DNA from: Acidobacteriota bacterium
Lineage (GTDB): Bacteria; Acidobacteriota; G020349885
Reading direction: 5' to 3'
DNA length: 64,000 bases
Assembly (NCBI GenBank): GCA_020349885.1
Contig: CP070701.1
Location: 1,604,846-1,668,845 of the forward strand
Made by a program: the position numbers and the translations under genes. Shown piece after piece: positions 57,126 through 60,831 of this stretch (the first letter of the stretch is position 1; each line of letters starts with the position of its first letter). Under the pieces are notes generated by a model. That model had not been told where the DNA came from and did not search any database. It saw only the letters and a program-made list of their open reading frames with translations.

Positions 57126-57154
57126 TTGACATTCCCTGCGAACGTTGCTACAGT
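57126..57154 (+). promoter_or_regulatory. Promoter of the double-kinase gene
   Basis: Consensus TTGACA (57126-57131), 17-bp spacer, TACAGT (57149-57154); the -10 lies inside the first copy of a 17-bp direct repeat. Confidence 0.55.
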
Positions 57155-57174
57155 AATAACGTTGCTAAAGTAAT
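57141..57174 (+). repeat. Tandem 17-bp direct repeat at the kinase promoter
   Basis: AACGTTGCTACAGTAAT (57141-57157) followed at once by AACGTTGCTAAAGTAAT (57158-57174), 16 of 17 identical, covering the -10 box and the start point. Likely regulator sites, or a duplicated -10 region. Confidence 0.65.
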
Positions 57175-57205
57175 ACGGTAATATAACAAGGGAGTCTTGG
57201 GAGTC

Positions 57206-60200
57206 ATGGGCTACTGTCTCTTTTGCGACGTGGAGAACCCCCCCGGCGCCGTGTTCTGCTCGGGCTGCGGAGCATCGCTTGAGGAAGCGGCGGAGGGGGA
57301 CAGCCTCGCACCCGCCTCGGCGCCCTCTTCGGGAGCGTCCCGCGCGGCCCCGGAGCCTCCCGTCGAGGCCGCGACGCCTTTTGCGAAGGGCTCGGTCCTG
57401 AGCGGGCGCTACGAGCTCCTGGAGGTCTCGGGCTCCGGCACCTACGCCTCCATCTGGAAAGCGCGCGACCAGCGAACGGGAGAGGCGGTGGCCGTCAAGG
57501 TTCTGGACTTTACTCCTTTCGACGAGGCGGAAAACAAGGAAGCCAAGGCACGGTTTCTGCGCGAGGGGGCCATCTGCCAAAAGCTGAAACACGACCACAT
57601 CGTCCGCGTGTTCGAGGTCGACGAGGCCCAAGACACGCCCTATTTCGTGATGGAATGGATGCAGAGCCAATCCCTCCGCTATGTGCTCGACAAGAAGGGC
57701 GCCCTTGGCGTTCCGCAAGCCGTGGACATCGCCCGCAAGGTGGCGGAAGCCCTCGAGTGCGCGCACGGCATGGGCGTCTACCATCGAGATTTGAAGCCCG
57801 CGAACATCGTGTTCAACGAGGACGGCGAAGTGAAGCTCACCGATTTCGGCATCGCCAAGGTGCTCGACGACATGGGCGAGGGCGGCTTGACGCGCCCCGG
57901 CACGGTTCTGGGCACGATCGAGTACATCGCGCCCGAATACATTAGCGACGGCAGGGTCGGCCCCGCGTCGGACATCTACTCCCTGGGCATGGTGCTTTAC
58001 GAAATGCTCGCCGGCCGGCTCGCGTTCACGGGAAAAACGCCCCTCGACATCATGCGCAAGCACCTGAAGGAAATTCCCGTGCCGCCGTCCCAGAAGAATC
58101 CCAACGCGGACATCTCCCCCCTTCTCGAATCGGTCGTCTTGAAGTGCCTGGACAAAAACCCGGAGGACCGCTACGGGAATCCCTCGGCTCTGCTCAAGGA
58201 TTTAGACCGCGCCGTCCCCCGGCCCTCCGAGGCGCCGCAAGTCCCGGGGCAGGCGCCCGCGGAGGCGGGCATGGTGGGCCGAACGATTCGCGACTACGAA
58301 ATCGTGGAGCTTCTGGGCGAGGGCGGCATGGCCTCGGTCTACAAGGCCCGCCACACGCGCCTCGGGAGCTTCCGCGCCATCAAGGTCATCCGCAGGGAAC
58401 TGGGGGAGCAGCCCAATTTCTACGAGCGGTTCCGCGCCGAGGCCCAAATCGCCGAGCGTCTTTCCCACCCGAGCCTTGCGATCCTGCACGATTTCAGCCA
58501 GACCGATGACGGCCTCATCTACGCCGTCTGGGAGTTCGTCGAAGGGGACACGATTCAAAAACGGTTTGGAGCGGGAAAGCCCTTTCTGCCCCAGGAGGCC
58601 GCCGAAATCGTATGGCAGGTGGCCGGGGGACTCGTGGCCGCCCATCAACAGGGCATCTACCACCGCGACATCGCTCCCGACAACATCATTCTGCTTGCGA
58701 CCGAGGACGGCTCCGTCCGCGTAAAGGTCATTGACTTCGGCATCGCCAAGTTCGTCCGCGGCGAGGACGAGAACGTCCAGACCGACTACCGCTACTTCCT
58801 CGGCAAAGTGGGCTACAGCGCGCCCGAGCAGATAGGAAACCTCAAACCGGGAGAGGTGCTCGACGGGCGCTGCGACGTCTTCTCTCTCGGCGCCGTGCTC
58901 TACGAGCTGCTCGCGGGGCAGCGGCTCTTTAAGGCCAACGCCTTTTTCCCTTACATGAAGGAGCTCGCGCTCATGGACCCCTCGAGCCTTGCGTTTCCGG
59001 GCTCGGTGCCCGAAGCGCTGCAAACGGTGGTGCGGCGCGCCGTCCAGCCCGACCGCAACGCGCGCTACGCCTCGATGGAGGAATTTACCGAAGAGTTTTT
59101 GCATGTGATGAATCAGGCGTTCGCGGAGCCGGCCCCGTCGGAGGAGGAGGCTCCCGAGCCCGCGGAACCCGAGCCCGCGGAACCCGAGCCCGCGGAACCC
59201 GAGCCCGCGGAACCCGAGCCCGCGCCCCCCGCGGCCGAGCGCGCCGCTCCCAGGCCGCGCCCTGTGGCGCCGGCCAAACCGGTGCCTCCTCCGCGGCTGC
59301 GCCCCATCACGGGGCAGGAAAAAATTCCCGAAAAACGCACGCCGTTCCGCCCGCCCCTCCTGCGGGAGACGGCGAGAATTAATTTGGAGCACGTCTCGCT
59401 TCCGGCGCTTTTGGGAAACATGTTTCGCCAGAAGAAAACCGGCGCCTTGTGCTTCTCCTTCGGCGCGCACCGCTTCGACGTGTACGCCCACGCCGGCGCG
59501 GTCGTCAACATCGCGGGAGACGGCGCGGCCTTCGTGAAGGACCTGCGGGGGCTGGCTTCGCCGCTGCGCTTCTTCACGCAGAATCCCGAAATCAAGTGCG
59601 CCTTCGGCGCGACAGGCCCGTCGGCCGTGCCGCACGATTTTTCCCTTTCGCTCGCGGCGCTCATGTGGGAGGTCTGCCAGCCGGAAGACGTGGCCAAGGC
59701 CGCGGAGGTCATGCGCGACATCAAGGCAAGTCCCGCGCTGACGATGTCCTCCATGGAGATTGCCAAGCACATTGCGCTCACGTCGGAAGAGGCGTACTTT
59801 TTGGGCATGGTGGAGGCCGCGTCCTCGTTCCGCGAGCTCTTGGCAAGCAGTCCCCTGGAGACCGATGACGCGGCGAGATTGGTTGCGTGTCTTGTGTGGA
59901 TGGGCGCCATCCCCGTCGCCTCGGAAGAGCCCCAGTGGCTCGACGCGGATCTTTTCGAGCATGCCCTCAACGCCGAAACACTCGTCTCGAAAGAGCAGGA
60001 GGCCGAGAAGCAGAAGATACTGTCCTTTTACGAAAAGCTGCGCGAGGCGCCGGGGCCCGCGGACGTTTTGGGTGTTTCTTCGACGGCCATCGACGCGCAT
60101 GTGGAGAGCGCCCACGCGGCCCTCGCGCAGGAGTACGCCGCGGAGCGCTTCTCACCGGCCGTGCGCAAGGCCCTCTCGCACGAGCTTGCCATGATCGGGA

Positions 60201-60724
60201 TGCGCCTTTCGGAGGCCTATCTTCTCATGCTCAATCGCAAGGCGCGCGCGCCCGACCAGGCGCCGGTGCATGACGACGCCGAGCTGCTTGACGACGAGAA
60301 ATACAGGGTGCGCGTGAGCACGATCAAAACGAGCAAGGAAAAAGAGCAGGAGGATAAGCTGCGCATCGCCGAGAGCTACTACCATCAGGCGCAAGCGGCC
60401 TTCAAGAAAAACGATTACTGGCCGTGCATCCAACTCTGCGAAGCCGCCGTTTCGGCTAACCCCGGCCGCCCCGAGTTCTACATCCTCATGGGGCGAGCGC
60501 AAAGGAAGAACCCGAAATGGATCAAGAGAGCCATCACCTCGCTCGAAAAGGCCATCTCGCTTGATCTCGTGAACGAGGAGGCCCGCCTGGAGCTTGCAAA
60601 GCTCTACATCGAGAAGGGCATGAAGACGCGCGCGCGCCATGAACTTGAGGAGCTCATGCGTCACATCCCCAAGTCGCAGGAAGCCGCCGACCTTCTCAGT
60701 GGGCTCGGAAAGAGAAAACGGTAG
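57206..60724 (+). CDS. Soluble protein with zinc ribbon and two Ser/Thr kinase domains
   Basis: 1172 residues. Zinc ribbon at 4-21 (C4, C7, C18, C21). Kinase 1 at about 69-335: GSGTYAS loop, Lys98, HRDLKPAN (193-200), DFG (213-215). Kinase 2 at about 363-635: GEGGMAS loop (371-377), Lys393, HRDIAPDN (486-493) with Ala in place of the catalytic-loop Lys, and DFG (510-512). A Pro/Glu repeat linker (EPAEP units, about 650-675) follows, then a DUF4388-like domain (about 722-860, INLEHVSLPALLGNMFRQKKTGAL), and a C-terminal helical region with TPR-like repeats (about 1070-1172). No membrane helix, unlike PknB. The ATG at 57206 has GGGAG just upstream. A signalling protein; the substrates are unknown. 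Confidence 0.9.
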   Translation: MGYCLFCDVENPPGAVFCSGCGASLEEAAEGDSLAPASAPSSGASRAAPEPPVEAATPFAKGSVLSGRYELLEVSGSGTYASIWKARDQRTGEAVAVKVLDFTPFDEAENKEAKARFLREGAICQKLKHDHIVRVFEVDEAQDTPYFVMEWMQSQSLRYVLDKKGALGVPQAVDIARKVAEALECAHGMGVYHRDLKPANIVFNEDGEVKLTDFGIAKVLDDMGEGGLTRPGTVLGTIEYIAPEYISDGRVGPASDIYSLGMVLYEMLAGRLAFTGKTPLDIMRKHLKEIPVPPSQKNPNADISPLLESVVLKCLDKNPEDRYGNPSALLKDLDRAVPRPSEAPQVPGQAPAEAGMVGRTIRDYEIVELLGEGGMASVYKARHTRLGSFRAIKVIRRELGEQPNFYERFRAEAQIAERLSHPSLAILHDFSQTDDGLIYAVWEFVEGDTIQKRFGAGKPFLPQEAAEIVWQVAGGLVAAHQQGIYHRDIAPDNIILLATEDGSVRVKVIDFGIAKFVRGEDENVQTDYRYFLGKVGYSAPEQIGNLKPGEVLDGRCDVFSLGAVLYELLAGQRLFKANAFFPYMKELALMDPSSLAFPGSVPEALQTVVRRAVQPDRNARYASMEEFTEEFLHVMNQAFAEPAPSEEEAPEPAEPEPAEPEPAEPEPAEPEPAPPAAERAAPRPRPVAPAKPVPPPRLRPITGQEKIPEKRTPFRPPLLRETARINLEHVSLPALLGNMFRQKKTGALCFSFGAHRFDVYAHAGAVVNIAGDGAAFVKDLRGLASPLRFFTQNPEIKCAFGATGPSAVPHDFSLSLAALMWEVCQPEDVAKAAEVMRDIKASPALTMSSMEIAKHIALTSEEAYFLGMVEAASSFRELLASSPLETDDAARLVACLVWMGAIPVASEEPQWLDADLFEHALNAETLVSKEQEAEKQKILSFYEKLREAPGPADVLGVSSTAIDAHVESAHAALAQEYAAERFSPAVRKALSHELAMIGMRLSEAYLLMLNRKARAPDQAPVHDDAELLDDEKYRVRVSTIKTSKEKEQEDKLRIAESYYHQAQAAFKKNDYWPCIQLCEAAVSANPGRPEFYILMGRAQRKNPKWIKRAITSLEKAISLDLVNEEARLELAKLYIEKGMKTRARHELEELMRHIPKSQEAADLLSGLGKRKR
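59155..59226 (+). repeat. 15-bp coding tandem repeat in the kinase linker
   Basis: Four to five perfect copies of a 15-bp unit (GAACCCGAGCCCGCG) encode EPEPA repeats. They are exact at the DNA level and therefore prone to copy-number change in frame. Confidence 0.8.
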
Positions 60725-60802: not shown

Positions 60803-60831
60803 TTGACAAACGCTACAAAATGTGGTATACT
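60803..60831 (+). promoter_or_regulatory. Strong promoter of the lytic transglycosylase gene
   Basis: TTGACA (60803-60808), exactly 17 bp, TATACT (60826-60831). The leader of about 46 nt can form a CCGCC-TAAG-GGCGG hairpin (60864-60877) that covers the G-rich ribosome-binding region before the ATG at 60884. The preceding gap from 60725 shows a small CCCC/GGGG hairpin. Confidence 0.75.

Follow-up and report, generated by a model that had tools for sequence, protein, structure and literature searches.

A tandem-kinase protein of an Acidobacteriota bacterium and a class of kinases in which a catalytic-loop lysine and a P+1-loop threonine appear to have traded places

A 64,000-nucleotide stretch of an Acidobacteriota bacterium genome (contig CP070701.1, forward-strand positions 1,604,846 to 1,668,845; hereafter the window, whose numbering is used below) contains a gene for a protein with two kinase domains in tandem, K1 and K2. 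A first reading of the DNA, made from the sequence only, noted that K2 has HRDIAPDN in place of the usual catalytic loop, and suggested that it might be a pseudokinase-like, regulatory half, by analogy with the JAK-type tandem kinases. Is K2 a dead partner of K1, or is it an enzyme that has found another solution to the missing lysine? The question depends on the following features.

57206-60724, + strand: whole gene of the 1172-amino-acid tandem-kinase protein, with ATG at 57206
57404-58195, + strand: K1, canonical kinase domain, with HRDLKPAN and with T237 at the position of PKA T201 (Pfam, own-genome search, residue mapping)
58292-59089, + strand: K2, swapped-class kinase domain, with HRDIAPDN and K534 (Pfam, own-genome search, tree, alignment)
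58673-58675, + strand: codon of A490, at the place of the catalytic-loop Lys (PKA K168) of canonical kinases (alignment)
58805-58807, + strand: codon of K534, where canonical kinases have Thr or Ser, PKA T201 (alignment, alignment-free count)

Catalytic residues and the Lys/Thr exchange

Both domains belong to the Hanks-type Ser/Thr kinase family PF00069. In a search of the protein's own genome K1 (residues 69-329) scored 194 bits and K2 (residues 364-627) 143.8 bits, against a cut-off of 31.7, and a Pfam Pkinase scan returned the two stretches with 329.9 bits together. The catalytic residues are K98, E120, D195, K197, N200, D213 and T237 in K1, and K393, E412, D488, A490, N493, D510 and K534 in K2. 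This mapping agrees with the sequence-only reading that Ala (A490) replaces the catalytic-loop Lys in the second domain, and that the ATP-binding beta3 Lys (K98, K393) and DFG (D213, D510) are intact in both. K2 also retains the glycine loop, the alphaC Glu, the HRD Asp and the Asn. In O'Boyle et al. 2025 (PMC12599244), which reviews bacterial pseudokinases by a three-residue rule, a pseudokinase is a domain that has lost any of the beta3 Lys, HRD Asp and DFG Asp. K393, D488 and D510 are all present in K2 and, judged by residue content, neither domain fits this usual definition. Kannan et al. 2007 (PMC1821047) considers how the absence of the other Lys, K72, can be compensated; the ten key residues given there do not include K168.

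Kinase domains of the phylum were gathered by similarity to the whole protein (40 genomes), by similarity to K2 (396 genomes, 93 of them with a match at E 1e-45), and with the DNA pattern HRD[ILV/M][SA]P[DE]N, which misses Ser codons AGY. The pattern gave 32 hits in 20 of 297 genomes, and its reversed control gave no hit across the same 297. Position 201 (PKA numbering) played no part in any selection of the 115 domains that were aligned. In the tree of these 115 rows, the 43 domains in which Ser or Ala replaces the catalytic-loop Lys form one clade, with support 96/96. The catalytic-loop column has Ser (38) or Ala (5) in these swapped domains versus Lys in the 69 canonical ones, and the T201 column has Lys in 42 of the 43 and Asn in one, versus Thr (66) or Ser (3) in the canonical domains; these are the two most discriminating columns of the alignment. 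An alignment-free count by regular expression found Lys at 201 in 42 of 43 swapped and 0 of 70 canonical domains, plus one HRDIRPSN domain with Ser. The swapped domains retain the remaining catalytic residues, with DLG or DMG for DFG in some. In effect, as read from the alignments, the catalytic-loop Lys and the P+1-loop Thr have traded places, and K2 has the marks of the clade: A490, K534 and the other catalytic residues. Because the 43 domains include many single-kinase proteins of many families, the exchange does not appear to be the decay of one copy.

The Ala of the second domain is a hallmark of a large clade that gained a Lys at the T201 position, and the three residues that define a pseudokinase are kept. 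The earlier observation was right, its pseudokinase interpretation is unlikely, and the pseudokinase/JAK reading was rejected as first choice. It is the paired Lys/Thr exchange that we regard as the finding worth keeping. A literature search, mostly without subscription papers, found no description of such an exchange, which does not establish its absence from print. The sole clade member with Asn at 201 is L089:3526-6309; with Ser at 168, it is a candidate for a truly inactive member by these residues.

Outside the phylum, wider genome contigs gave one weak planctomycete locus, with one recognised kinase domain there. K2 itself, run against plasmids and phages, first gave canonical kinases among the hits opened (L143-L145, L177 and L178). 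A swapped-motif probe against plasmids gave a Myxococcota kinase (L179) and the alphaproteobacterial kinases L180-L182, and L184-L190, picked by homology to L180 alone, have both changes in seven of seven cases. Both changes are present in this one Myxococcota kinase and in ten alphaproteobacterial plasmid-borne kinases. Eight of the ten lie beside genes annotated as type VI secretion system (T6SS) and five beside PP2C; L185 adjoins a Clp-protease gene, and the neighbourhood of L184 is unannotated. The same probe also gave L183, on a Parasedimentitalea plasmid, a swapped-class kinase near T6SS genes whose frame is broken and which is annotated as two genes. According to PMC3953482, the Agrobacterium tumefaciens T6SS kinase PpkA is needed for phosphorylation of TssL at Thr14, which is abolished in the PpkA D161A/N166A mutant. 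Since three other Rhizobiaceae kinases are swapped (L184-L186, one beside annotated T6SS genes and two at similar loci), PpkA is, by analogy, likely swapped as well.

In an alignment of 130 rows, Lys is found at 201 in 53 of 54 swapped domains, and Thr (72) or Ser (3) in all 75 canonical ones. The tree that includes the trait columns requires one change, that is, one origin (Shimodaira-Hasegawa-like approximate likelihood ratio test, SH-aLRT, 87). With the trait columns masked, the free quick tree needs three changes, which suggested multiple independent origins; these were not upheld, as a tree holding all 54 together was not worse (approximately unbiased, AU, test 0.824).

An AlphaFold2 model of K1-K2 has a mean predicted local distance difference test (pLDDT) of 84.5 and a predicted template modelling score (pTM) of 0.53. 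Each half resembles PknB, which also provides the nearest solved structures by sequence and by fold, and there was no two-kinase structure among the best 50 fold matches. At E 1e-60 or better, a profile search of solved structures gave 18 sequences, entered as PknB, PknA, StkP, Stk1 or a generic kinase; no swapped structure was found among them, judged by names and by the alignments of two. In PKA, T201 hydrogen-bonds to D166 and K168. By analogy, if 201 is Lys and 168 is small, the same contact would still have one Lys and one small or hydroxyl side chain, with the positions exchanged. PMC8970585 places D166 and K168 in the catalytic loop, close to the nucleotide. We propose that in an old bacterial clade the catalytic-loop Lys was replaced by Ser or Ala and the neighbouring activation-segment Thr by Lys. 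K534 would reach from the P+1 loop and stand in for the missing Lys: it would brace D488 and neutralise the phosphate being transferred, and K2 would thereby transfer phosphate.

Pairing of K2-type and canonical kinases

The genome encodes 11 kinase domains in eight open reading frames, three of which have two domains: the protein studied here, L010 and L009. L010 is 39% identical over residues 32-634 and has the same domain order, K1 (HRDIKPGN) before K2 (HRDLSLDN), followed by a membrane segment and TPRs; the order, a search for which was recommended with the sequence-only reading, recurs in this paralogue of the same genome. L014, with one kinase domain, matches K1 at 54% identity across residues 47-338, and its TPR tail (Pfam TPR_19, E 1.4e-4) resembles by eye that of the studied protein. 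In the 115-row tree K1 groups with L014 (100/100) and K2 with K2 of L010 (100/99), and a clade of K1, L014 and K1 of L010 was not rejected (AU 0.303). These data fit, but do not prove, the duplication of an ancestral gene that already had K1 and K2 in tandem.

Of the 32 pattern hits, L109 was unreadable, leaving 31 readable K2-type loci. Three are fused to another kinase domain: the studied protein, L111 in the reverse order, and L110, also in the reverse order and with a degenerate partner. At six, a canonical kinase gene lies immediately upstream in the same orientation, the open frames being 3-71 nucleotides apart; five of these pairs (L084, L085, L086, L088 and L090) are one family and L091 is another. 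The upstream product in the three scanned pairs (L084, L085 and L091) is a kinase plus an FHA domain; in the downstream products the kinase is preceded, at the N terminus, by two CxxC motifs that look like a zinc ribbon by eye but gave no Pfam hit at 0.01. None of eight more swapped loci chosen by similarity (L115-L122) had a partner kinase. A fused or adjacent co-oriented kinase was found at none of 20 control loci, hand-picked from 71 canonical loci listed in two genomes; the comparison with the K2-type loci (p 0.008) is soft, because a known fused domain (G005:C169) was left out of the control and six orthologous pairs are among the 31 test loci. As to orthology between the fused pair and the split gene pairs, the upstream members of the pairs grouped with K1 in a quick tree (SH-aLRT 87) and not in a careful one; AU tests rejected none of the groupings (K1, p 0.303 and p 0.272; K2, p 0.126).

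Two of these loci deserve separate mention. At L107, another swapped kinase gene lies 1.2 kb away on the same strand, and one of the two has HRDLSCSN. L110:5541-9554 encodes, in one frame of 1338 amino acids, a swapped kinase and then a degenerate kinase-like domain (VVLT, HSALSPQN, DVA). As the homologous second domain of L111 is intact, the L110 lineage seems, from these motifs, to be losing its second kinase domain.

Pairing of a canonical with a K2-type kinase is real and recurrent, and may have a functional meaning. What had been proposed was a functional pairing of a catalytic and a regulatory half. The pairing itself recurs, with the same order in L010, adjacent genes in six relatives and reverse fusions in L111 and L110; the dead half is unsupported. 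The finding named at the time as counting against the proposal, the two domains as independent genes in relatives, was made in part, in the six adjacent gene pairs and in the loci where K2-type kinases stand alone. One alternative is that the fusion is accidental, the two kinases being independent and the K2 class feature irrelevant to the studied protein. Bacterial kinases readily undergo fusion, those of the K2 type mostly occur singly, and there are fusions in the reverse order. We nevertheless regard this alternative as unlikely, since the K2 class in this genome is found only behind a canonical kinase (two of two, the studied protein and L010), and the same upstream-downstream order is seen in six gene pairs of two families.

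A genuine pseudokinase-kinase tandem is encoded in the same genome by L009:3755-6706 (+ strand), in which TPRs are followed by a degenerate domain and a canonical kinase. Proteins of this type span several families of the phylum. Thirteen were readable (L009, L166-L174, L176, L025 and L030; L175 was unreadable); in all 13, neither the beta3 Lys nor the HRD Asp is present in the domain that precedes the active kinase, and a canonical kinase follows that domain in 12, L173 ending before that point. Judged from domain order, the JAK analogy fits the L009 type and not the studied protein, in which K1 is canonical and the altered domain stands second rather than N-terminal to the kinase. The possibility that K2, catalytically dead or impaired, binds ATP and acts as an allosteric switch of K1, in JAK fashion, draws on this use of the principle by the lineage, on the absent catalytic-loop Lys, and on the recurrence of a canonical kinase next to K2-type ones, fused or in adjacent genes. 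We think it improbable: K2 keeps the three activity-defining residues, two of which are lost in the true pseudokinase of L009; K2-type domains mostly stand alone; and a paired gain of Lys at 201 would be unexpected under decay.

The remainder of the protein and its locus

The order along the 1172 residues is zinc ribbon, K1, K2, Pro/Glu linker and a DUF4388-like/helical/TPR module. The remaining features are as follows.

57126-57154, + strand: promoter-like TTGACA-17-TACAGT upstream of the tandem-kinase gene (consensus match only)
57141-57175, + strand: 17-nucleotide direct repeat, 2.1 copies, overlapping the promoter-like site (repeat search)
57212-57280, + strand: N-terminal zinc ribbon, Cys 4, 7, 18 and 21 (Zn_Ribbon_1, 22.0 bits, under the cut-off of 25)
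59153-59224, + strand: 15-bp repeat, 4.8 copies in frame (PEPAE), an acidic Pro-rich linker (repeat search)
59369-60721, + strand: C-terminal module, homologous to a stand-alone DUF4388-helical-TPR protein (relatives' alignment)
60356-60700, + strand: TPR region (TPR_19, E 1.2e-8; structure model)

The presence of two kinase domains, a zinc ribbon, and DUF4388-like and TPR modules in one protein, as first described, is borne out by Pfam and by the homologous module, with the DUF4388 and ribbon profiles below their cut-offs here. The C-terminal module, of about 450 residues with the TPRs at its end, aligns end to end with a stand-alone family of the same phylum (23-25% identity in ten relatives) and, by this alignment, is a fused copy of that family. 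DUF4388 (PF14332) is weak in the tandem-kinase protein (14.5 bits versus a cut-off of 25, E 0.037), which is outside the seven own-genome hits, and is significant in both scanned members of the stand-alone family (2.8e-11 and 8.4e-16); the tandem-kinase protein lacks about 60 alignment columns in its DUF4388 region. Residues 701-1055 have relatives in 25 of 297 same-phylum genomes, its own included, at E 1e-5 or better. The relatives listed are open frames of 480 to 929 amino acids, and the full C-terminus is matched by eleven fetched relatives. A model of the module (pLDDT 68.7, pTM 0.33) is confident in the TPR part, and the best 50 Foldseek matches were to TPRs only, the top one being an idealised TPR (E 5.6e-6). 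By eye, the helices that precede the TPRs resemble a J-domain; Pfam gave no support for this. That the protein is soluble, without a membrane anchor, agrees with the first description: hydropathy revealed no membrane segment (best 19-residue mean 1.39, versus 2.07 in L010).

A TTG nine bases upstream of the ATG at 57206 is the mechanical first start of the same frame. Consensus matching found five promoter-like sites in 4 kb, versus 0.5 on average in shuffles. Since the tandem-kinase gene has its own promoter-like site and another, at 60803-60831, lies ahead of the next gene (SLT transglycosylase), the gene is probably transcribed alone. The direct repeat at 57141-57175 is a possible operator. 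The neighbouring genes examined encode YidC, the SLT transglycosylase and a radical-SAM/TRAM protein, and none of them is a T6SS or PP2C gene.

Weighing the readings and comparison with known systems

The explanation that we favour, and consider reasonably probable, is that the protein is a soluble scaffold with two Hanks-type kinases, both probably catalytic, in which K2 is of the swapped class, K534 is its relocated Lys, and the domains phosphorylate each other. We infer that the tethered K1 and K2 most likely act on each other's activation segments, and that shared clients would be recruited by the DUF4388-like/TPR module and phosphorylated by both. On the broader proposal we are evenly divided: that the K168/T201 exchange may be a second "migrated lysine" solution, an old one, present in at least three phyla and in T6SS kinases, that its bearers would be active enzymes, and that the tandem would be a two-enzyme relay with one kinase per chemistry and no dead partner.

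Several points weigh against this explanation. The exchange may have arisen once, and therefore the count of 42 in 43 measures how often the exchange was kept rather than how often it arose. L089 has neither lysine (Ser and Asn), and 22 of the 31 readable K2-type loci have no partner kinase. The K1-K2 interface is not fixed by the AlphaFold2 model (pTM 0.53; 13 rows, 2 of them tandem). Catalysis by K2, like that of every kinase read as swapped, is deduced from sequence, and Agrobacterium PpkA is placed in the class by analogy. T201 also lines the substrate site, and a Lys there may serve substrate choice. Tyrosine kinases, too, differ from Ser/Thr kinases at both positions. That the exchange sets phosphoacceptor or substrate choice, the P+1-loop Lys selecting acidic or unusual sites, would accord with the contact of PKA T201 with the substrate Arg at P-2 (described in PMC8970585) and with the location of the change in the P+1 loop by the APE motif, where there are further clade-specific residues nearby (column 213), but it is more improbable still, as it would need a further reason for the accompanying loss of the catalytic-loop Lys and Agrobacterium PpkA, if of the swapped class, phosphorylates Thr.

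If the relocated Lys of K2 is functional, a residue used for calling kinases dead or alive from sequence can be substituted predictably, and motif rules could misfile an entire class of active bacterial kinases.

Among known systems, both domains resemble the Hanks kinases PknB, PknA and StkP (PF00069), and the nearest structures are those of PknB. The studied protein differs from the PknB type in having no PASTA or membrane segment (a Pfam scan of it found no PASTA repeats), in its two tandem domains, and in A490 and K534 where PknB has Lys and Thr. It is not a member of the PASTA kinase PknB family (NF033483), since its 512.9 bits exceed the cut-off of 450 only by the two kinase stretches adding up. 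Kinase-TPR architectures are listed in Krupa and Srinivasan 2005 (PMC1262709). The alphaproteobacterial T6SS kinases (PpkA) share the Lys/Thr exchange with K2 in the ten plasmid-borne examples; unlike the studied tandem, they are single-kinase proteins in T6SS loci. The WNK kinases, with their relocated beta3 Lys (as described in PMC12599244), share the principle that a catalytic Lys has moved to another active-site element. In WNK, however, it is the ATP-anchoring beta3 Lys that moved, its place being taken from the glycine loop or beta2, whereas K2 lacks the catalytic-loop Lys and keeps its beta3 Lys, K393. JAK and the plant tandem kinase-pseudokinase proteins likewise have two kinase domains per chain, but the studied protein has no domain that fits the pseudokinase definition and its altered domain is second. 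L009, of the same genome, is likewise soluble-looking and combines TPRs with two kinase domains, the first of which is by sequence a true pseudokinase; its order is not homologous to that of the studied protein. The lineage thus holds both a true pseudokinase-kinase tandem and kinase-kinase tandems, so that the two designs can be compared within one genome.

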